Source of the DNA: Geothrix edaphica
GTDB lineage: Bacteria > Acidobacteriota > Holophagae > Holophagales > Holophagaceae
Direction: 5' to 3'
NCBI RefSeq assembly: GCF_030268045.1
Contig: NZ_BSDC01000005.1
Coordinates: forward strand, 1 to 53,728
DNA length: 53,728 bases
Of this stretch, positions 2,346 through 27,901 are shown one piece after another. The notes under the pieces were generated by a model that was not told the origin of the DNA, did not search any database, and worked only from the letters and a program-made list of their open reading frames with translations. The translations under genes were made by a program, and so were the position numbers. Every line of letters starts with the position of its first letter. Position 1 is the stretch's first letter.

Positions 2346-4456
2346 CGGCGCAGCCGCAGGGCGTTCAGCACCACGGTCAGGGAACTCAGCCCCATGGCCA
2401 GCCCGGCGAGCATGGGCCCGCCGAACCGCTCCAGCTGGCCCGAGGCCGCCAGGGGCACCAGCACCAGGTTGTAGCCGAAGGCCCAACCCAGGTTCTGGCG
2501 GATCACGCGGTGCGTCCGCAAGGCGAGACGGCGTGCGGCAAGGATGGGCTCCAATCCCGGCCGCAGCAGCACCAGGGGAGCCGCCGCCATGGCCGCGCCG
2601 GTGCCCTGCTCGCCGGCCCCGGAGCCCATGGCGATGCCACAGTCCGCCTGGGCCAGGGCCGGCGCATCGTTCACGCCATCACCCACGAAGCCGACCACGG
2701 CGCCCTGGGCCTGGAGCTCCCGGATGCGGGCGAGCTTGCCCTCGGGGCGCAAGCCTGCGGCCACCGATTCGATGCCCACGGCCTCGGCCATCTTCGCCGC
2801 AGGCTCCGCGCGATCGCCCGTGAACAGGTGGAGGCGGAGACCCTGCTGACGCAGCTGTCCCGCCACCGCCGGGCTCTCGGCCCGGAGCCGGTCGCCCAGC
2901 ACGAACACGCCCTTCAGCCCGGAAGCGTCCGCCAGCCCCACGGCGATCCCGTCCTCATCCACCTCCGGGAAGGCCACCCCGAGGAAAGCGGCGCTGCCCA
3001 GGCGCCAGGCGTGGCCGTCGATCTCACCGCTGACGCCGCCGCCGGGATGGGCGCGGAAGGCCGACACCGGCTTCAGGGCCCCGGCATGGGCCGTCACGAG
3101 GCCGCGGGCGATGGGATGCTCCGAGTCCCGTTCCAGGCTGGCCGCGAGCCGCAGCAGGTCCGCATCGGCCAGGCCCGAGGTCGCCAGGACCCGGCGCAGC
3201 CGCGGTCGCCCCTCGGTGATGGTCCCGGTCTTGTCGAAGGCGAGGTCCGTGGCCTGGCCGAGGGCCTCCAGGGCCGCGGCATCGCGCACCAGTACGCCCT
3301 TCCGGGCGGCGGAGCCCAGGCCCACCATCACCGCCACCGGCGTGGCGAGCCCGAGGGCGCAGGGGCAGGCGATCACCAGCAGGGTCACGGCCGGCCGCCA
3401 GGCGGAGGCGAGGGCGCCGGTGGCCAGCCACCAGCCCGCCAGGGTCAGCAGGGCCAGAACGAGGATGGCCGGCACGAACACGGCGCTGATGCGATCCGCC
3501 AGATCCTGGGCGGGGGCCTTGGAGCCCTGGGCCTGGGCCACCAGCTGGGCCATGCGGGCCAGCTGGGTCTGGGCCCCCACAGCCTGGATCTCCATCTCCA
3601 GCGCAGAACCATGGACCACGGTGCCGGCCACCAGACCTTCACCCGGCCCCTTGGGGACAGGCAGGGGTTCGCCCGTGAGCATGGATTCGTCTACCTCCGC
3701 CTGGCCCGCGGTCACGCGGCCATCCGCCGGCACCGAGTGGCCGGGCAGCACCCGGACGCGATCGCCGGGGCGCAGGTCCGCCACCGGGATTTCCGTCACC
3801 GTGCCGTCCGGCCCGAGGCGCAGGGCCGTGGGTGGTGCCAGCGCCAGCAGCTCCTTCAAGGCATCCGTGGCCCTGGACTTGGCCCGGCTCTCCAGGTACT
3901 TGCCCGTGAGCAGGAAGGCCACCAGGGCCGCAGCCGTCTCGAAGCTGAGGTGGTGGACGCCGTTCAGCCACTCCGCCACGGCAAAGATCCAGGCCACGCC
4001 CGAACCCAGGGCGATGAGGGTGTCCATGGAGGCCTGGCCGTGCCGTGCCTGGCGCCCCGCCCGGACAAAGAACCCCCAGCCGGCCCAGAAGACCACGGGG
4101 GCTGACAGCAAGGCCTGGACCCACCCGGGCAGGTGCAGCCCCAGGCCGGGGATCATGGCCAGCAGCAGGGGCGCCGTGAGGACCAGGGCGACAATCATCC
4201 GGTTCCGGGCCGGGCCGGGATCGTCTTCGGCCTGCACCACCGCCTGATCCGCCTGAGGGCGGCCCAGGCCATAGCCCGCCTCCTCGACCTGTGCCGCCAG
4301 CGTCTCGAAGCTGGCCTCGCCTTCCACTGTGGCCGTGGAGGTGGCGAGGTTGACGGAGGCCGCCCGGACACCGGGGGTTTCCACCAAGGCCTTCTCCACG
4401 TGCCGCACGCAGGAGGCGCAGGTCATGCCAGTGACGGTATAGGTCTCGCTGCTCAT
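2342..4456 (-). CDS. copA: Copper-exporting P-type ATPase
   Basis: P1B-type ATPase that exports Cu(I) from the cytoplasm. The 704-residue protein has one N-terminal heavy-metal domain (GMTCASC, 10-16), the actuator TGE loop (261-263), the membrane CPC metal site (364-366), the phosphorylated DKTGT (Asp408), an SEHP nucleotide motif (445-448) and GDGVND (592-597). GYN near 661-663 and MGLSS near 688-692 are the P1B-1 signatures for copper or silver rather than zinc or cadmium. It is the last gene of a merR-copZ-copA operon, 18 bases after copZ. Its stop codon overlaps that of galU on the other strand. Confidence 0.95.
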   Translation of the reverse strand: MSSETYTVTGMTCASCVRHVEKALVETPGVRAASVNLATSTATVEGEASFETLAAQVEEAGYGLGRPQADQAVVQAEDDPGPARNRMIVALVLTAPLLLAMIPGLGLHLPGWVQALLSAPVVFWAGWGFFVRAGRQARHGQASMDTLIALGSGVAWIFAVAEWLNGVHHLSFETAAALVAFLLTGKYLESRAKSRATDALKELLALAPPTALRLGPDGTVTEIPVADLRPGDRVRVLPGHSVPADGRVTAGQAEVDESMLTGEPLPVPKGPGEGLVAGTVVHGSALEMEIQAVGAQTQLARMAQLVAQAQGSKAPAQDLADRISAVFVPAILVLALLTLAGWWLATGALASAWRPAVTLLVIACPCALGLATPVAVMVGLGSAARKGVLVRDAAALEALGQATDLAFDKTGTITEGRPRLRRVLATSGLADADLLRLAASLERDSEHPIARGLVTAHAGALKPVSAFRAHPGGGVSGEIDGHAWRLGSAAFLGVAFPEVDEDGIAVGLADASGLKGVFVLGDRLRAESPAVAGQLRQQGLRLHLFTGDRAEPAAKMAEAVGIESVAAGLRPEGKLARIRELQAQGAVVGFVGDGVNDAPALAQADCGIAMGSGAGEQGTGAAMAAAPLVLLRPGLEPILAARRLALRTHRVIRQNLGWAFGYNLVLVPLAASGQLERFGGPMLAGLAMGLSSLTVVLNALRLRR

Positions 4457-4474
4457 GTCGGTTCCGGGTTCGGC

Positions 4475-4681
4475 CTAGGCCGGCTCCGTCATCTGGTAGC
4501 CCGCTTCGGCCACGGCGGCGGACAGGGCCCCGAAGCTCGCGGTGCCGGTCACCTTGGCCGTGCCGCTGGTCAGGTCCACGGCCACCTCCGTGACGCCGGG
4601 GGTATTGCGGAGCGCCTTGTCGACGTGGCGGACACAGCCGCCGCAGGTCATGCCGGTCACGCGATAGGTATGGGTGTTCAT
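4475..4681 (-). CDS. copZ: CopZ-like copper chaperone (heavy-metal-associated domain)
   Basis: A 68-residue stand-alone heavy-metal-associated domain with the metal-binding motif GMTCGGC at residues 10-16 and the usual beta-alpha-beta-beta-alpha-beta pattern ending in AEAGYQM. In this family the two cysteines bind Cu(I) and pass it to the CopA N-terminal domain. It sits between the merR regulator (16 bases upstream) and copA (18 bases downstream), so all three are probably on one transcript. The domain is clearly related to the CopA N-terminus here (both have a TGMTC..C..HV..AL pattern), consistent with duplication. Copper specificity is inferred from CopA. Confidence 0.9.
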   Translation of the reverse strand: MNTHTYRVTGMTCGGCVRHVDKALRNTPGVTEVAVDLTSGTAKVTGTASFGALSAAVAEAGYQMTEPA

Positions 4682-20170: not shown

Positions 20171-21967
20171 CTACAGGCGCCGGCCGAAGCTCCGCTCCAG
20201 GTCCTCGAGGGTGAGCTTCTTCAGGATGGGCCTCCCATGCGGACACGTGTTGGGCACCTCGCAGGCCAGGAGGTCGCGGATGAGGCCCTGGGCCAGATCC
20301 GGGGGCAGGGCGTGGTGCTTCTTGATGGCGGCGCGACAGGCCAGCTCGGCGTTGAGGTCCCGGCGGAAGGCGTCCAGGTCCACGCGACCCTCCCGTTCCA
20401 GCCGGGCCAGCAGGTCCTCCAGCAGGGCCTGGGGATCGCGGTCCGCCAGGAAGTCCGGCAGGCCGCGCACCACCAGGGCGCCATCTCCAAAGGGCTCCGC
20501 GTCCACGCCGGCCACCTCCAGCTCCGAGAGAAAGGGCGTGAGCCGCGCCAGGGCTTCGGGTCCGAGCTGCACCACCTGCGGCGGCATCAGGGGCTGGATG
20601 GCGGGGGCGTGGCGGCGCAGGAAGAGCCGCTCGAAGAGCACCCGCTCGTGGGCCACGTGCTGGTCCACGATCCAGAGCTCAGGGCCCCGCTCCCCGTCGA
20701 TCTCCGCCAGCAGGTAGGTCTGCTGGAAGCTGCCCAGGTAGCGGATGGCGCCGCCGGAATTCAGGTTCTCGGCGGCCCCGGAGGACAGGGGCTCATAGGC
20801 GTAGATCGTTTCCATGGGCCGCGTCGTGAAGGTCTCCTCCAGAGCCCGATAGGCTCCCAGCGCCCCTCCGGAATGATCGGACCAGAGCCGCGGATGCTGC
20901 GGCGCAGCCCGGCGGGAAGGATCCAGCTCGAACTCCGCCTCCAGCGGCTTCGGCGGCAGCTCCAGCACGGAAGCGAGGCCGCCTCGCAGCTTCGACCACG
21001 CCTCCTCGGCCCCGCCCCGCACCCAGGCGAAGATGCGCTGGGGCTCGCGGAAGCGCACCTCGGCTTTCGTCGGGTGCACGTTCACGTCCACGGCCTCGGG
21101 GGGCAGCTCCAGGAAGAGCACGGCCGCCGGGTACGAGCCCTTGGCGAAGGTGCCCGACCAGGCCTCCGACAACGCCGCCAGCAGCAGGCGATCCCTCACC
21201 GCCCGCCCGTTCACGAAGAGGTAGAGGTGGTTGCGGTCGCGGAAGCTGAGGTCCGGCGGTGACACGAAGCCCCGCAGCCGCCAGGGCAGCTCGCCGTTCA
21301 CGAAGGGCACCAGGCGGGTGAGCTTCTCGCCGAGCAGGGGGCCCAGGCGCTGGCCCGCGTCCGCCACCGGCGGCAGCACCAGGGGCGCGCCGCGGTCGGG
21401 ACGGATGGTCCAGTGGACGCCAGCGGAACTCAGGGCCAGCCGGGCCACGGCTCCCCAGAGCTGGGCGTGTTCCGTGTCCGTGGACTTCAGGAAGCGCCGC
21501 CGCGCGGGCAGCTGGGCGAAGAGGTCCCGCACGGTCACCGTGGTGCCCCGGCTGCGGGGCGTGGGCGTGACCTCCTTGATGATGCCGAACTCGCAGCGCA
21601 GGCGATGGCCCGCGCCGTCGGCTTCGGCGCTCGTCAGGTCGAAGCGGCTCACGCTGGCGATGCTGGGCAGGGCCTCGCCGCGGAAGCCGAAGGAGGCCAG
21701 ATGGCCCAGGTCCTCCGCCGTGCGCACCTTGCTGGTGGCGTGGCGCTCCAGGGCGAGATACAGGTCATCCCGGGCCATGCCGGAGCCGTCGTCGGCCACC
21801 TCCAGGAGGCGCTTGCCGCCCTCCTCCCAGGCCACTTCGATGCGCCGGGCCCCGGCGTCCAGGGCGTTCTCCACCAGCTCCTTGAGCACCGAGCTGGGCC
21901 GTTCGACGACTTCCCCCGCCGCGATCTGGTTCGCGACGTGATCGGCGAGGACTCGGATCTTGGCCAT
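20171..21967 (-). CDS. mutL: DNA mismatch repair protein MutL
   Basis: Mismatch-repair mediator that couples MutS recognition to downstream strand processing. The 598-residue protein has the GHKL ATPase motifs: QIAAGEVVERP, KELVENALDAGA, DDGSGM, TSKV, FGFRGEAL and SRGTTVTVRDLF. A transducer domain follows, then a variable linker near 335-410 and a C-terminal dimerisation domain (LWIVDQHVAHERVLFERL). The C-terminal CEVPNTCPHGRP region is the usual family end. It is convergent with the sigma-54 activator (six bases apart). The ATG at 21967 lacks a strong ribosome binding site. Confidence 0.95.
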   Translation of the reverse strand: MAKIRVLADHVANQIAAGEVVERPSSVLKELVENALDAGARRIEVAWEEGGKRLLEVADDGSGMARDDLYLALERHATSKVRTAEDLGHLASFGFRGEALPSIASVSRFDLTSAEADGAGHRLRCEFGIIKEVTPTPRSRGTTVTVRDLFAQLPARRRFLKSTDTEHAQLWGAVARLALSSAGVHWTIRPDRGAPLVLPPVADAGQRLGPLLGEKLTRLVPFVNGELPWRLRGFVSPPDLSFRDRNHLYLFVNGRAVRDRLLLAALSEAWSGTFAKGSYPAAVLFLELPPEAVDVNVHPTKAEVRFREPQRIFAWVRGGAEEAWSKLRGGLASVLELPPKPLEAEFELDPSRRAAPQHPRLWSDHSGGALGAYRALEETFTTRPMETIYAYEPLSSGAAENLNSGGAIRYLGSFQQTYLLAEIDGERGPELWIVDQHVAHERVLFERLFLRRHAPAIQPLMPPQVVQLGPEALARLTPFLSELEVAGVDAEPFGDGALVVRGLPDFLADRDPQALLEDLLARLEREGRVDLDAFRRDLNAELACRAAIKKHHALPPDLAQGLIRDLLACEVPNTCPHGRPILKKLTLEDLERSFGRRL

Positions 21968-21995
21968 GGCCTAGAACGCTACCAGCTATCCGCTG

Positions 21996-22448
21996 TCAGC
22001 TGGCCCGGCGGTCAGCTGTCGTACGCAGCTCGACCTGGGCGTGGGGGATGAAGAGATGGCCCAGGTAGGCCAGCAGGAACAGCCCGGCGCTGAGGCCGTG
22101 GGCCCAGCTGAAGACCGTGCGCCAGGCGGGGCTGGTGACCACCTGCACGGCGTAGCCCGACAGCACCATGGGGGCGATGAGGAAGGCCGCGCCCAGGCCG
22201 GTCCGGCGGCCTTCGGGGCCCTTCTTCAGCTTGATCTGGAGGTGGCCGCGCACGGCCATGCCCAGGGCGAAGAGGAGGAGGGGCGCCGTCAGCACATGCA
22301 GGTGCTGGGCCGCGGGCAGCCAGGGGTGGGGCTCGGGGCCGAACTCCCCGGCGCGCACGCCGAACCAGCGCAGGAGGCCGTCCATGAGGCCCGTGCCCGC
22401 CGCGGCGAGGGCGGCCAGGTGCAGGCTCCAGCGCTCCAGGGGGCTCAC
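21996..22448 (-). CDS. Membrane protein with paired histidines (b-type cytochrome-like, DUF4405-like)
   Basis: A 150-residue integral membrane protein with four hydrophobic helices. Histidines are placed as expected for heme axial ligands: His51 and His69 around helix 2 (HVLTAPLLLFALGMAVRGH), His117 and His131 around helix 4 (HGLSAGLFLLAYLGH), plus His10 near the first helix. This resembles small cytochrome b or DUF4405 proteins that carry electrons across the inner membrane. It overlaps the FMN-binding gene by four bases, placing it last in the apbE-porin-FMN-binding set. Heme binding is inferred from the histidines and the context only. Confidence 0.6.
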   Translation of the reverse strand: MSPLERWSLHLAALAAAGTGLMDGLLRWFGVRAGEFGPEPHPWLPAAQHLHVLTAPLLLFALGMAVRGHLQIKLKKGPEGRRTGLGAAFLIAPMVLSGYAVQVVTSPAWRTVFSWAHGLSAGLFLLAYLGHLFIPHAQVELRTTADRRAS

Positions 22449-22963
22449 TTGGCCTCCCGGTAGAGCACCCGGTGCAGGGCCAGGCAGCGGCGGGCCGCGT
22501 CCGTCATGGCGTGGGCCGTGAGGGTGGCGCCGGAGAGCGGGTGGATGCTCCCCTTGAGGCTGAGCTGGGGGTCGAGGGCCTTCCCCTCGAACTGCTTCAC
22601 CCAGGCCTCCTTCGCCATGTACTCCGCGGGCTCGTGGAAGGCCACGGCCTCCACGCGCAGGACGCGGCCCTCGGGCGCAAGGGCCACCAGCAGCGTCTCG
22701 TTCAGGGTCCGGACCCGGTGGGTGTCGAAGAAGCCGACACCCACCAGGGTTCCGTTCTTCCGCGCCTCGTAGACCACGAGCCAGCGTCCCGGCACCTCCA
22801 CCTGCGCCAACGCCTTCACCTGCCCGGCCTGGGCCTCGCTGAGCACGAACTCCCGGCGGGTGAACTGCGCCCCCGGGAAGGCCAGGGCCAGGGCCTCCTG
22901 CGTGGAGGGCAGGGTGGCAAAGAGCGGCAGGGAGAAGGCGAGGGGGGCGAGGACGCGGATCAT
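22445..22963 (-). CDS. Exported FMN-binding domain protein, likely ApbE substrate
   Basis: A 172-residue protein with an N-terminal signal segment (MIRVLAPLAFSLPLFATLPS) and an FMN-binding domain. The covalent flavinylation motif is S144-G-A-T147 within HPLSGATLTAHAM; in this family ApbE attaches FMN to the threonine by a phosphoester bond. The segment WLVVYEARKNGTLVGVGFFD is the usual beta core. The ApbE gene is two genes upstream on the same transcript. AGGA lies near the ATG, and the gene overlaps the membrane cytochrome-like gene by four bases. Probably periplasmic, passing electrons between the membrane protein and an outer acceptor. Confidence 0.8.
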   Translation of the reverse strand: MIRVLAPLAFSLPLFATLPSTQEALALAFPGAQFTRREFVLSEAQAGQVKALAQVEVPGRWLVVYEARKNGTLVGVGFFDTHRVRTLNETLLVALAPEGRVLRVEAVAFHEPAEYMAKEAWVKQFEGKALDPQLSLKGSIHPLSGATLTAHAMTDAARRCLALHRVLYREAK

Positions 22964-22970
22964 GGCGGTC

Positions 22971-24263
22971 CTAGAAGTAGAAGCCGAGACCGACGTTGAA
23001 CTGGTCGCGACCGGTCTCGGCGCGGTTCTCGATCTTGTTCCAGTCAGCCTTCACGGCGACATTCGGGATGGGCTTGTAGCTCACGCCCACGGTCTTCACG
23101 GTGACGTCGTTGGCCAGGTCGGGGGTCACGCCCGCCACCACCCGCTGCTGGGAGTTCAGGCGCTCGTAGCGGACGAAGGGAATGAGGGCCTGCTTGCCGG
23201 ATCCGCGGAGCACATCGTAGCCCGCCTCCAGGTAGCCGCCGAACTGGCGGGTGCCGGTCTGGAATCCGTCGCCGGTGACGGGGAGGGCCGCGACGCCGGC
23301 CTCGGAGTTGGTGATGCGGGAGAAGAGGCCGCGCAGCTGGAGGCCCTGGGCCCGGTACTCGGCATGGACATCCCACAGGGTCGTGACAAGGGACTCGGCG
23401 CCGTCCACGGGATTCGAGTTGCCGCGGTAGAAGCTGAAGCCGAGCGTGGTGCCCGGGATGGGCGCCCAGTCCAGGCGGCCGGTCCAGGCCAGGCTGTTGG
23501 CCTGGGCCTCCTTGCCGAACTGGCGACCGCCCTTGATGCTCTCGGCCGTGAAACCCTCGTGGCCGTTTCCGGAATCGGGGTTGGCATCCATGCCGTTCAC
23601 GAGGTAGAGGCGGTAGCTCAGGTTGCCCGGCAGCTCGCCGTGGATGCCGACACCGTTCTCATGCCAGGTGCTGGGGATGATCCGGCGCTCCACCAGGGGA
23701 CGCTTGGCGCCGAGGAAGGCGGGGGGCTCGTGCATCTCGTTGATGAAGCCCACGGGCAGCAGCATCATGCCGGCCCGCACGTTGAAGGCCTTGTCGATCA
23801 GGAAGTCCAGGTAGGCGAACTCGACCTTGACCTCGCCGCCGGTGGACTCATCGGAGTAGCCGCCGTGCTCGAACTCCAGCTCGGAGTTGAAGACGATGTG
23901 CTCGTTGAACTTGTAGCCCGTGTAGAGCACGAGACGCAGCGCGTCGAGGTTGTTCTCCCGGGGCGCCTTCGTCCCATCCTGCAATTTCGAATCGAAGTTC
24001 TGGTACAGGAACTCGCCGTAACCGCCGATGCTGAGGCCCGTGGGGGCCGCGTAGACCTTGCTGGCCGCCGCGCCCAGGCCGAAACGGCCTTCCTCGCCGG
24101 CGGGAGGCATCACGCTGCCGGTCTTCTGGCTCTCGAGCTCCCGGGACATGGCGTCCAGGCGACGCTCCAGCTCGGCGACTCGCTTATCGGTATCCGGCTT
24201 CTCCTGGGCGAAGGCGGGCGCCGCCAGCAGGGCGCACATGAGGGGGGTGAGCAGGGACTTCAT
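22971..24263 (-). CDS. Outer-membrane porin (OprO/P-like)
   Basis: A 430-residue beta-barrel protein. It has a signal peptide ending AFA-Q, a short coiled coil (KRVAELERRLDAMSRELESQ, residues about 27-46), and then a barrel with alternating strands (LSIGGYGEFLYQNF, LRLVLYTGYKFNEH, VKVEFAYLDFLI) finishing in FNVGLGFYF with the terminal aromatic typical of outer-membrane proteins. The coiled coil plus barrel layout fits trimeric porins with a periplasmic coil. It overlaps apbE by four bases and is followed within 8 bases by the FMN-binding gene. Substrate unknown; context suggests iron or electron transfer. Confidence 0.8.
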   Translation of the reverse strand: MKSLLTPLMCALLAAPAFAQEKPDTDKRVAELERRLDAMSRELESQKTGSVMPPAGEEGRFGLGAAASKVYAAPTGLSIGGYGEFLYQNFDSKLQDGTKAPRENNLDALRLVLYTGYKFNEHIVFNSELEFEHGGYSDESTGGEVKVEFAYLDFLIDKAFNVRAGMMLLPVGFINEMHEPPAFLGAKRPLVERRIIPSTWHENGVGIHGELPGNLSYRLYLVNGMDANPDSGNGHEGFTAESIKGGRQFGKEAQANSLAWTGRLDWAPIPGTTLGFSFYRGNSNPVDGAESLVTTLWDVHAEYRAQGLQLRGLFSRITNSEAGVAALPVTGDGFQTGTRQFGGYLEAGYDVLRGSGKQALIPFVRYERLNSQQRVVAGVTPDLANDVTVKTVGVSYKPIPNVAVKADWNKIENRAETGRDQFNVGLGFYF

Positions 24264-25243
24264 CGGGACTCCCGGGACATCAGGGTGGGGTGGAGGGCGC
24301 GGAAAGCCGGAGTCATCCGGACCGTTCCGTCGTTGAGGAGGAAGGCGGCGGCCACGCCCTGGCGCTCGGCCCAGGCGGGACCCGCGTCGGGGCCCAGGAC
24401 ATAGAGGGCCGTGGACAGCACGTCCGCCGTGAGGGCGTCCGCGGACACCACCGCCGTGCTGCCCCAGGCCGGGCAGGGCTCGCCGGTGCGGGGATCGAGA
24501 ATGTGGCGGCCGCGCTCGGAGGTGCCGCTGCCCGCGAGGGAGGCCTCGTCCAGGCGGAAGGAGAGGCGGGGGTGCCGGCGGTCCAGGGGATCGGCGATGG
24601 CGACCGGCACGGGCCGACCCCAAGCCAGCAGCTGGCCCCCGAAATCGAGCAGCCCGGCGGGGCTGGCCGCCACCCGACGCAGGCGGTCCAGCGCGTAGCC
24701 CTTGAGGAAACCCCCCTCCTCCACACCCGCGGCGGCATGGGTCAGACGGGCGACGCCGGCGGCCGGGTCGAGCAGCAGCAGCCCGGCGCCCGAGGCCCGG
24801 CGGGCCTCCGCCAGGACCTCGGGCGTCGGCGTCCGCCCACCGTGCCGAAGGTCCCAGGCCCGCACCAGGGCCATGAGCACCGGATCGAAAGCGCCCTCCG
24901 TCCGGACCTGCCAGGCCTTCATCCGACCCAGCAGGTCGATCCACTCGGCATCCAGGGACACCGGCTCGCCCTGCGCGGCGTTCAGGCGGCTCCAGGCGGA
25001 GGCGGCCTCCCAGGTGGAGCAGGCCGCCTCCAGGCGGGCCGCCTCCGCCAGCGCCGCCTGTGAGACCCGGTCGAGATCCCCCGGCCCTTCGAGATGCAGC
25101 CTCAGCTCCGTCCCCATGGCCAGCACCGCGCGGTCCCGGGTGGGCACCGAAGTGAGCATCGGGGCCGGCGCCGGAGCGGGCATGGGCGCCTGGGCCGCCA
25201 GCACGGCGGGGACCAGGAGGAGACCAAGGCGGTTCACGTGCAT
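24260..25243 (-). CDS. apbE: FAD:protein FMN transferase
   Basis: Transfers FMN from FAD to a Thr or Ser of extracytoplasmic flavoproteins. With the ATG at 25243 the protein has 327 residues, a signal peptide without a lipobox Cys (LLLVPAVLAAQA), and the ApbE landmarks: MGTELRLHLEG, VDRLLDFGG-type region (GLLDFGGQLLAWG), GTSERGRHILDPRTGEP and STAVVSADALTADVLSTAL with the metal-binding Asp/Thr. Its evident client is the FMN-binding protein on the same transcript. The start is uncertain: no ribosome binding site precedes this ATG, and a palindrome overlaps it. A TTG at 25285 or GTG at 25252 are alternatives. Confidence 0.88.
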   Translation of the reverse strand: MHVNRLGLLLVPAVLAAQAPMPAPAPAPMLTSVPTRDRAVLAMGTELRLHLEGPGDLDRVSQAALAEAARLEAACSTWEAASAWSRLNAAQGEPVSLDAEWIDLLGRMKAWQVRTEGAFDPVLMALVRAWDLRHGGRTPTPEVLAEARRASGAGLLLLDPAAGVARLTHAAAGVEEGGFLKGYALDRLRRVAASPAGLLDFGGQLLAWGRPVPVAIADPLDRRHPRLSFRLDEASLAGSGTSERGRHILDPRTGEPCPAWGSTAVVSADALTADVLSTALYVLGPDAGPAWAERQGVAAAFLLNDGTVRMTPAFRALHPTLMSRESR

Positions 25244-25257
25244 GAGAATGAGTCTCA
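25243..25257. promoter_or_regulatory. Fur-like palindrome (site 1)
   Basis: TGAGAATGAGTCTCA is a 7-1-7 palindrome matching 6 of 7 positions between halves and about 11 of 14 informative positions of the Fur consensus TGATAATnATTATCA. It shares the pattern TGAGA-N5-TCTCA with a second site 46 bases away. It overlaps the presumed apbE start. Fur itself is inferred; another dyad-binding regulator is possible. Confidence 0.5.
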
Positions 25258-25286
25258 CAAACTTGATCTTCGATTTCAAACCCAAA

Positions 25287-25305
25287 TTTGAGATGAGTTC
25301 TCAAA
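25287..25305. promoter_or_regulatory. Fur-like palindrome (site 2)
   Basis: Perfect seven-base arms TTTGAGA and TCTCAAA flank the spacer TGAGT. The core TGAGA-N5-TCTCA is the same as in site 1. It lies between the divergent apbE and metallopeptidase-like genes, so it could control either direction. Confidence 0.5.
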
Positions 25306-25342
25306 AAGTGATCCCCGTCACGCCCCGGTTCACACTGGGGAG

Positions 25343-27901
25343 ATGCGCCCCCGGATCCTGACCCCCGCCCTGGCCCTCCTTCCCGCCCTGGTCCAGGCGG
25401 CCCCTGCGCGGGTCCAGGCCCCGGACGCCCCCTGGCTCACCTTCGCCACGGCCCACTACCGCATCCACTGCCCCGCCGCCTTCGAGGCCTTCGGGCGCGA
25501 CGTGGCCGGGCGCGTCGAGGGCGTCCATGCCCAGTACCTCGGCCTCGTGGGGTTCGCCTACGAGAAGCCCGGAAAGCCCATCGACATCGTCATCCTCGAT
25601 CCCGTCCTGGAGGCCAACGGGCTGGCCTTCCCAATCCTCCAGCGCCCCCAGGTGGTGCTCTGGAAGACGGAGCCCGCCCCCGATTCGCCCATCGGCCACC
25701 ATCGCGGCTGGGCTGAGCTGCTGGTGGCGCACGAGCTCGGCCACATGCACCATCTGCTGCGCCCGGCCCGGCGGCCGAACCTCTGGCAGCGCTGGACCGC
25801 GGTGCTGGGACCCCTCGCGGAGAAATCGCCCCGCTGGGTCACGGAAGGCTACGCCACGCTCATCGAGGGGAAGCTCACCGGCAGCGGCCGCCCGCACAGC
25901 GCCATTCGCGCCGCGGTCCTGCGCCAGTGGGCCCTCGAAGGCAAGCTGCCCACCTACGAGGCCCTGAGCGGCACCCGCGGCTTCCTCGGCGGCAGCCTGG
26001 CCTACCTGGGAGGCAGCGGCTACCTGGAATGGCTGGAGGCCAAAGCCGGGGACCCGAAGGTGCTCCAGACCCTCTGGCTCCGCCTGGCCGGGAAGCGCGA
26101 CTTCGAGGCGGCCTTCCGGGCCACCTTCGGCTTCGGCCCGAAGGACGGCTACCAGCGCTACTGCGCGGAGCTGACCCACACGGCCCTGGAGCTGGAGCGC
26201 TTCGCCAGGGCCCAGGGGCTGCGTGAAGGCGAGCTCGTCACCCAGCTGCAGGGCTGGGCCTCGGACCTGGCCCTGAGCCCCGACGGCACGAAGCTCCTGG
26301 CCCGCGTCACGGCCCCCAAACACCCGGGCCTCTATGTGTGGGACCTGAAGGCCATGCCGAAGGCCGCCCAGCCGGAGCCCGGGGAGCCCGTGGACCACGC
26401 CCCGGCCGCCCCGGTCCTCCCCCCCGCCCGGCGCCTGGGCCCGGTGAACGGGGCCCTGCCCTGGAAGCCCCTGTGGACCGGCCCGGACCGCATCGCCTTC
26501 CAGCTGCGGCTGCCGGACGCGGAGGGCGTGCTGAAACCCCAGCCCTGGCAGTGGACGCTCGGCCGGGGCCTGACCCGGGGCTCGGCCCCGGCCCCGGAAG
26601 TGGCCCGACCGGCTACGCCGGGCGGCCCCACGTGGCGGGAAGTGGAGGGCATCTGGAACCTGGTGGACGGCCAGGGCCGCCCCCTCACCCGCACCCTGGC
26701 CGCCGCCTGGAATCCCGTGGCGACGCCCGACGGCCGCTGGATCTACTACACCCAGCTCAGCGCCTCGGGCCTCCAGATCCGCCGCCTCGACGCCACCCGG
26801 CCCCCCTTGGATGCGAAGCCCCTGCCGCAGGACCCGGCGCCCCTGGTGCCGGGCCAGGTGCTGCCGAAGGCCGACGAGTCCAGCCCCCTGCCGCCGCCGG
26901 TCCCCGTGGAACCCCATCCCTACCGGGTGGGCGAAAGCCATGACACCTTCACCCTGGCGGGGTACAGCGCCACGCCCTCGGGCCTCAGCGCCCAGCTCGG
27001 CGCCGGCGGCAACGACCTCCTGAACCGCCTGAACTGGCAGGTCCTCGCGGGCCTCGGCGACGGCGCGGGCCCCCGCGGCGGCATGGCCGGCGTGGCCTGG
27101 CGGGGCTGGCGGTGGGCGCCCTCCCTCCAGGCCTTCTCCCTCCTCGAGCGCCCCTCGAGCCAGCGCTTCGCGCCCCTCGCGGGCTTCGACCGAGAGCGCC
27201 GGGGCGCAGAGCTGGCCTTCGAGCGGGCGGACCTGGGCCGGCCCCGCGCGCACTTCCGGCCCGTGGCGGCCTTCGAGCGCGTCGCACCCGCGGACGCGAG
27301 CCCGATCCACCGCGCCCTCTGGGGCGTGGACGCAGGCCTGGGCAGCTTCTGGAGCCGGGACGGGCAGGGCCTCCGCGCCGCCCTCGCCTCCCGGGAACAG
27401 CAGGGCCGGACGGACGGTCACGCCTGGACGCTGACCCGGACCACCCTCACCCTGGGCTGGATCAACCCCTGGTCCCCCCTCACCGTGCACCTGGAGGAGG
27501 GCCGCATCGGCGGCGACCCCACGACCCTGGACCGCTTCCGCCTGGGCGGCGTGGGCACCTCCCTGCTGCCCACCGCCCTTGATGCCAACCGGGTGGTCCA
27601 GGCGGCCCTGCCCGCCTACACCGCCACGGGCAACCGGCTCCGGCGCCTGCGCGGCGACCTGGGGCTGGGCCTCCTCCGCGCCTATGTGGAGCACGCGACC
27701 GTCTGGCAGGACGCCGCGCCCCGGCCCTCCGCCCAGCGGGTGGCGGGCCTCGAGCTGGACAGCCGCGACATCGACCTGCCCCTGGATGTGCTGCGGCGTC
27801 TGGCCGGCAACCTCTCCTTCACGGTGGGGCTGCACCGCCCCTTGGATGGCACCATGAAGGGCCGTACTGTGGGAACCCTCAGCGTGATCGTGCGGCCGTG
27901 A
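25343..27901 (+). CDS. Exported HExxH metallopeptidase-like protein with propeller and barrel-like regions
   Basis: An 852-residue exported protein. After a signal peptide (LALLPALVQAA), residues 28-300 form a peptidase-MA-like domain with zinc motif HELGH (130-134) and a downstream glutamate in WVTEGYATLIEG (Glu168), the gluzincin layout. A propeller-like middle part has DLALSPDGTKLLARV near 310 and WNPVATPDGRWIYYT near 455. The last 300 residues alternate aromatic and polar residues (GVAWRGWRWAPSLQAFSLLE) and may form an outer-membrane barrel. It is divergent from apbE and shares the palindromic region. Peptidase activity is inferred from motif only. Confidence 0.7.
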   Translation: MRPRILTPALALLPALVQAAPARVQAPDAPWLTFATAHYRIHCPAAFEAFGRDVAGRVEGVHAQYLGLVGFAYEKPGKPIDIVILDPVLEANGLAFPILQRPQVVLWKTEPAPDSPIGHHRGWAELLVAHELGHMHHLLRPARRPNLWQRWTAVLGPLAEKSPRWVTEGYATLIEGKLTGSGRPHSAIRAAVLRQWALEGKLPTYEALSGTRGFLGGSLAYLGGSGYLEWLEAKAGDPKVLQTLWLRLAGKRDFEAAFRATFGFGPKDGYQRYCAELTHTALELERFARAQGLREGELVTQLQGWASDLALSPDGTKLLARVTAPKHPGLYVWDLKAMPKAAQPEPGEPVDHAPAAPVLPPARRLGPVNGALPWKPLWTGPDRIAFQLRLPDAEGVLKPQPWQWTLGRGLTRGSAPAPEVARPATPGGPTWREVEGIWNLVDGQGRPLTRTLAAAWNPVATPDGRWIYYTQLSASGLQIRRLDATRPPLDAKPLPQDPAPLVPGQVLPKADESSPLPPPVPVEPHPYRVGESHDTFTLAGYSATPSGLSAQLGAGGNDLLNRLNWQVLAGLGDGAGPRGGMAGVAWRGWRWAPSLQAFSLLERPSSQRFAPLAGFDRERRGAELAFERADLGRPRAHFRPVAAFERVAPADASPIHRALWGVDAGLGSFWSRDGQGLRAALASREQQGRTDGHAWTLTRTTLTLGWINPWSPLTVHLEEGRIGGDPTTLDRFRLGGVGTSLLPTALDANRVVQAALPAYTATGNRLRRLRGDLGLGLLRAYVEHATVWQDAAPRPSAQRVAGLELDSRDIDLPLDVLRRLAGNLSFTVGLHRPLDGTMKGRTVGTLSVIVRP

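Follow-up and report, generated by a model that had tools for sequence, protein, structure and literature searches.

The 53,728-nucleotide stretch of Geothrix edaphica DNA analysed here, hereafter the window (positions 1 to 53,728 of contig NZ_BSDC01000005.1, from the assembly GCF_030268045.1 of 3.16 Mb in six contigs), harbors on its minus strand a module of four genes. In order of reading, these encode an ApbE flavin transferase, a coiled-coil porin, a protein that binds flavin mononucleotide (FMN), here called FMN_bind after its Pfam family, and a small four-helix membrane protein (4TM). An original prediction, made from the sequence of the window, had described four overlapping or near-abutting genes, and the coordinates bear this out (Table 1): apbE and the porin gene overlap by ATGA, a gap of 7 nt separates the porin gene from the FMN_bind gene, and the FMN_bind and 4TM genes overlap by GTGA.

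Table 1. Genes of the four-gene module and elements of its promoter region, with positions in the window
Feature	Position	Strand	Basis
apbE, FAD:protein FMN transferase (FAD, flavin adenine dinucleotide), divergent branch	24260..25243	minus	PF02424, 157.9 bits
Coiled-coil outer-membrane beta-barrel porin, Porin_O_P-like	22971..24263	minus	PF07396, 20.5 bits (sub-cut-off)
FMN_bind protein, hydrophobic N-terminus, SGAT motif; T147 codon 22525-22523	22445..22963	minus	PF04205, 25.5 bits
Four-helix (4TM) membrane protein, predicted di-heme cytochrome b	21996..22448	minus	Invariant His, model, charge pattern
Proximal Fur-like box TGAGACTCATTCTCA	25243..25257	minus	One of two exact copies in the assembly
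Distal Fur-like box TGAGAACTCATCTCA	25289..25303	minus	Second exact copy in the assembly
Dyad TGA-N6-TCA (TGACGGGGATCA), 5 bp upstream of the distal box	25309..25320	minus	Kept in 15/15 genus promoters

Flavin transferase, flavin protein and porin

In profile searches with each protein, ApbE and the FMN_bind protein exceed their Pfam cut-offs (25.6 and 22 bits, respectively), the former thereby qualifying as an ApbE flavin transferase, whereas the porin falls just under its own (20.9 bits) and the 4TM protein has no significant family. The host genome contains a single ApbE match and a single FMN_bind match, both in the module, so that enzyme and substrate form a pair without paralogues. Within the genus, the ApbE copies of the module score 153-169 bits and the other copies 257-269 bits.

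The SGAT motif predicted to end at Thr147 of the FMN_bind protein (S144-G145-A146-T147) was found in its place. T147 is invariant in the 15 genus sequences. Among 79 homologues this position is T in 73 and S in six, G145 is present in all and A146 in 75, and position 144 is S or T in just 56; three genus sequences have Ser in place of Ala146. A profile built from 61 homologues finds RnfG (9eri_G, 4.5e-11), the attachment motifs being aligned, and the window protein combines its PF04205 match with an attachment site of the form [S/T]GA[T/S]. For both ApbE and the FMN_bind protein, a possible export signal was judged by eye from the hydrophobic N-termini. In Bifidobacterium breve, an apbE mutant is described as impaired in the presence of ferrous chelators, and an FMN-binding protein as part of an iron-uptake cluster (PMC5449479).

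The Porin_O_P family (PF07396) is matched by 9 of 51 aligned porin homologues at E values up to 0.01 (best 1.2e-5), and the porin profile found no match among the sequences of solved structures. The members of this alignment, like those of the FMN_bind alignment of 61, were picked by length and diversity.

The four-helix membrane protein

The prediction had singled out His51/His69 and His117/His131 of the membrane protein and would have been refuted had they not been conserved. All four stand where they were claimed and are invariant in 79 of 79 homologues, which share no other invariant His; the only other invariant residues are G20, G63 and G84. The closest named homologues are those of G. 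terrae (95%), G. oryzisoli (91%) and G. fermentans (89%).

An AlphaFold2 model was built from 66 of the 79 sequences, leaving out ten of the 15 genus rows and the copies of loci L175, L178 and L188. It consists of four long helices, with a mean predicted local distance difference test (pLDDT) of 95.3. Lys and Arg residues per sequence number 4.7 in loop 2 and 3.7 at the C-terminus, and 0.4 in loop 1, 1.1 in loop 3 and 1.4 at the N-terminus. The charge of loop 2, together with the number of helices, suggests that loop 2 and both termini are cytoplasmic. Helices 2 and 4 would thus run parallel, placing H51 and H117 close to the periplasmic side of the membrane and H69 and H131 close to its cytoplasmic side, an arrangement that fits a membrane-spanning two-heme wire.

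By Z score, structural neighbours of this model include the designed di-heme bundle 4D2 (11.9), cytochrome b6 (11.1), HyaC (10.9), FdnI (10.5) and CybB (10.2), and heme-b proteins fill 13 of the best 20 VIA rows. The Pfam cytochrome b561 family (Ni_hydr_CYTB) is matched by 24 of the 66 aligned members at E values up to 0.1 (best 1e-6), though not by the window protein, and DUF4405 (PF14358) is weakly matched by 11 (best 0.0011). On the model and these matches, the 4TM protein is likely a di-heme cytochrome b. Structures of the PepSY, MsrQ and DUF4405 types were absent among the structural matches listed, which does not exclude them, and the 4TM profile gave one chance-level match (E 0.82) among the sequences of solved structures. 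A first model, from 15 close sequences (pLDDT 79.6), had mixed neighbours including channels and designed bundles, with HyaC at the top of its Foldseek list but at an E value of 0.05; it was superseded by the 66-sequence model.

Linkage and operators

The predicted gene order also withstood comparison with relatives. The 4TM gene is present in 15 of the 19 genus members of the relatives set, and the four genes have the same order in all 15. The members without it (G002, G005, G011 and G013, two of them 85% complete or less) are also without ApbE and FMN_bind Pfam matches, a joint absence as expected of one working unit; absence by Pfam is imperfect, since the FMN_bind profile misses a copy in G004 that was found by BLAST. 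The 4TM protein occurs in 18 of 26 genus members of a wider draw, and its family in 99 of 396 Acidobacteriota genomes (53 of 210 genera).

We compared 64 distant loci, 60 of them from Acidobacteriota 4TM carriers outside the genus and four from named contigs (an Acidobacteria metagenome-assembled genome (MAG), a Myxococcaceae MAG, Sphingopyxis and Tsuneonella); this is not a random draw, and some loci lie at contig ends. An FMN_bind homologue is present in all 64, a porin in 56 and ApbE in 54. The FMN_bind gene is in the same locus as the 4TM gene yet does not always adjoin it directly (L085, L086 and L135 differ). The layout ApbE-porin-FMN_bind(-4TM) was found in 29 loci, one of these with a divergent 4TM gene, and the layout porin-FMN_bind-4TM-ApbE in 18; the remaining 17 are arranged differently or are missing one or two parts. 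The 4TM gene of L135 (6072-6524) is divergent from the rest of the module, and L171 contains a tandem pair of porin genes. Of 119 genomes from the family of Sphingopyxis, four carry the 4TM protein; all five copies found there have FMN_bind and ApbE at the same locus. The Sphingopyxis locus itself (L085) has a DUF6662 outer-membrane barrel (3690-4589) in the place of the porin.

Upstream of apbE, the two TGAGA-N5-TCTCA palindromes of the original prediction are the sole exact copies in the 3.16-Mb assembly, where the reversed-pattern control gave none. The start codon of apbE (ATG) overlaps the proximal box. All 15 genus promoters retain the pair of boxes at a spacing of 43-47 bp, with at most one mismatch in the distal and at most two in the proximal box. 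Of 41 genus genomes, 37 contain the exact motif, at 93 sites in all; the reversed pattern has 8. Taken by itself, the window would not be striking, since two matches with at most one mismatch arose in 18 of 100 shuffles; a chance origin of the palindromes was rejected on their genome-wide exactness, the 93 against 8 genus sites and the positional conservation.

The same motif stands before iron genes. In the host genome, one-mismatch sites overlap the start of feoA-feoB (C3:184848; FeoB by Pfam, FeoA by eye) and lie just before bfd-bfr (Fer2_BFD and Ferritin by Pfam). Twenty-one exact sites were assigned in 20 genus windows: six to tonB, four to hemS-like genes, four to TonB receptors and two to the module itself, the others being a MauG-type peroxidase beside a coiled-coil porin (two), carboxypeptidase-like outer-membrane receptors (two) and a site beside a YfiR-like gene (one). 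Thirteen of the 21 lie in genomes without a 4TM match. These windows were picked from the listed sites, mostly omitting those of the module, so that the tally does not represent a random sample. Where a site fell between two divergent genes, as several did, it was credited to the iron gene; Pfam agrees for eight genus-window proteins and two host proteins, and the other sites were assigned by likeness. At the two peroxidase sites (L040:3-2218 and L052:2-2256, from genomes G031 and G040, which have no 4TM match), the motif is followed by a MauG-type di-heme peroxidase gene and then by a coiled-coil porin. In L040 this porin is a homologue of the one in the window (35% identity, E 2e-48), and that of L052 was judged by eye.

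A Fur-type box also precedes 26 of the 64 distant modules (reversed control, 0/64). Several of these boxes read TGAGAATGATTCTCA or TGAAAATGATTTTCA, which we take to fit the classical 7-1-7 Fur box, and two Fur-family genes are present in the host genome. The module shares two marks of a Fur regulon, a 15-bp palindrome at the promoter and a motif common to iron genes. Taken with the position of the motif before iron uptake and storage genes, the recurrence of Fur-type boxes before distant modules is good, if indirect, evidence that the module is putatively Fur-controlled. All 15 genus promoters also carry the dyad TGA-N6-TCA, which has the core of a CRP/FNR site, 4-5 bp upstream of the distal box; such dyads hint at a second input to the iron regulon. 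In L036, L038 and L044, similar dyads stand before the boxes of the hemS-like genes.

A putative reductive iron route

We propose, with a probability of about 65%, that the operon encodes a periplasmic ferric reductase that serves iron assimilation, is repressed by Fur and supplies FeoB. The sequences directly show the four parts and how consistently they are linked, the ligand-like residues that never vary, and the operator in common. From them we infer a relay, including its heme and flavin, the electron direction, donor and substrate, and the binding of Fur. When iron is scarce, Fur would leave both boxes and the operon would be transcribed. ApbE would transfer FMN from FAD to Thr147 of the exported FMN_bind protein. 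With a heme close to each membrane face, the four-helix cytochrome would carry electrons from the quinone pool or the cytoplasmic side to the periplasmic face and on to the flavin. The flavin protein would then reduce small ferric complexes that came in via the porin, and Fe2+ would enter the cell through FeoB.

Genes around the 64 distant loci were surveyed with a crude longest-open-reading-frame (ORF) caller, and ten clusters recur in three or more loci. FeoB is upstream on the same strand in four loci (cases from two families, three of them in one family), and a Fur-family gene adjoins the module in five; one FeoB and one Fur were checked by Pfam and the other identities by BLAST. FeoB and Fur are just two of the ten clusters, and adjacency alone is therefore weak evidence. 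In L168 and L182, one or two genes resembling DtxR-type iron regulators, judged by eye, lie between feoB and apbE.

The original prediction had offered two functions, ferric reduction and extracellular electron transfer, and among these we favour the assimilatory reductase. In the dissimilatory alternative, the flavin protein would serve respiration by passing electrons via the porin to acceptors outside the cell. Respiration of Fe(III) is known from Geothrix species, and the promoter contains a CRP/FNR-like dyad. However, the operator is common to iron-uptake genes, the 4TM protein is spread over 53 genera, and this combination of operator and taxonomic spread disfavours a respiratory role; moreover, 8 of 26 genus members have no 4TM match and no cytochrome c was recognised among the ten recurrent neighbour clusters. 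We regard this alternative as improbable. Redox repair or protection under iron stress is slightly less probable still. Here the 4TM protein would act like the superoxide oxidase CybB, or feed a periplasmic repair enzyme, rather than handle iron, and CybB (5oc0) indeed aligns with the model at Z 10.2 (root-mean-square deviation 3.3, 134 residues). The neighbours speak otherwise: of the 64 loci, nine have FeoB or Fur and 56 a porin, which points to iron transport, and no repair enzyme was recognised among the ten clusters.

The main competitor of the assimilatory reductase, unlikely but less so than the other two, is a ferri-siderophore or heme reductase. In this case the relay would free iron from an imported chelate, as FoxB and HiuB do, and the porin would be a by-path for the stripped ligand or for small chelates. 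There is a precedent in HiuB/FoxB as described in PMC12424826, a TonB-receptor gene adjoins the Sphingopyxis copy divergently, and the same motif is found at tonB, receptor and hemS-like genes in the genus; yet no TonB receptor was recognised among the ten recurrent neighbour clusters of the 64 loci, as judged by eye on the calls of the crude ORF caller.

Several observations weigh against the assimilatory ferric reductase. For the cytochrome, they are the lack of a significant Pfam family for the window protein; the seven unrelated bundles among the best 20 VIA rows, with Z up to 11.5; a top Z of about 12, which is below the caution level of the tool for helical bundles (about 13) and may reflect a common bundle; and a Foldseek search with the 66-sequence model that gave nothing below E 0.001 (best HyaC, 0.18). 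Unrelated membrane families were also matched by some of the 66 members (Acyl_transf_3 by nine, MFS_1 by six), and no biochemistry of any 4TM family member was found in the literature. Furthermore, CybB, which feeds electrons into the quinone pool, has the same fold, so that the electron direction is not fixed by sequence. For the linkage, the porin is missing in 8 of the 64 distant loci and an ApbE match in 10, and no connection to iron is evident for eight of the ten neighbour clusters that recur. For the operator, the host genome has 20 one-mismatch sites, few above the 13 of the control; of the 15 inspected, two lie before iron genes and the others before no clear iron gene. Finally, 38 of the 64 distant modules are without a Fur-type box within about 700 bp upstream.

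The original prediction did not recognise the four-gene unit as a named one, and no description of this set was found in literature titles and abstracts; as far as these were searched, the combination has not previously been described. In three flavinylation surveys (PMC8238504, PMC10979944 and PMC11334425), the words 'porin' and 'Acidobacteri' are absent from the main text. No PepSY-, MsrQ-, NapH-, DsbD- or Nqr/Rnf-type membrane component is among the Pfam matches of the four window proteins, nor among the 25 families listed, of 53, for the 66 4TM homologues.

The closest functional parallels are the PepSY-like flavinylation clusters and FoxB and HiuB, which are reported as Fur-repressed in Shewanella and Caulobacter and tied to iron assimilation (PMC8238504, PMC12424826). 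As these sources present them, they share with the module a flavinylated partner, an inner-membrane electron-transfer protein and the link to iron assimilation. However, the module has no PepSY match, its membrane protein is a predicted four-helix cytochrome and, in the Acidobacteriota loci, its outer-membrane protein is a porin and not a TonB receptor. By this comparison, the module likely works like these systems without being a member of them.

The DUF4405 cytochromes are the nearest flavinylation-linked kin of the 4TM family. As described by Huang et al. 2024 (PMC10979944), they are encoded beside apbE in cases from Proteobacteria and Firmicutes, and have four conserved central His, demonstrated heme b binding and six transmembrane helices. 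The 4TM protein is likewise a small membrane protein beside apbE with four conserved His, but its family has four helices rather than the six described there, and the window protein has no PF14358 match. The FMN_bind protein shares its domain and attachment motif with RnfG and NqrC, although there is no Rnf/Nqr membrane core among the four window genes and the FMN_bind match is the only one in the host genome. The cytochrome b561 profile is matched by 24 of the 66 members, the window protein not among them, and the family supplies good structural neighbours. Its members HyaC, FdnI and CybB serve hydrogenase, formate dehydrogenase and superoxide oxidation, whereas the partner linked to the 4TM protein is a flavin protein. 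For the porin, a possible counterpart is psp, which Rodionov et al. 2004 (PMC545781) describe as a Fur-boxed porin in Geobacter metallireducens and Desulfuromonas. The account of psp given there names no flavin or cytochrome partner.

A further proposal, for which we see the case as evenly balanced, is that the module represents a class of its own among flavinylated ferric reductases, so far undescribed, which is common in Acidobacteriota and has outliers in a Myxococcaceae MAG and in sphingomonads. It would combine a minimal four-helix di-heme cytochrome, one flavin protein and an outer-membrane channel of its own (the coiled-coil porin, or the DUF6662 barrel in Sphingopyxis), giving a TonB-independent reductive iron route from the outside to FeoB. 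Acidobacteriota are abundant in soil, and to our knowledge their iron uptake has been little studied. With its cytochrome in 99 of the 396 genomes sampled, such a compact reductase behind Fur boxes could be a main iron route in this phylum. Flavinylation-linked systems would gain a porin and a family of membrane cytochromes for which the Pfam library used contains no dedicated model. The module may also supply a partner for the Fur-boxed porins of metal-reducing bacteria, which are given without proven function in the 2004 account (PMC545781). The four genes are present in culturable strains, which makes their role testable.

A sigma-70 scan of 21800-25500 found no promoter and no terminator. 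The divergent plus-strand neighbour of the module (25343-27901) encodes a protein with a HELGH zinc-protease-like motif, and relatives of this gene with HELGH or HELAH also adjoin the module in loci L042 and L048.

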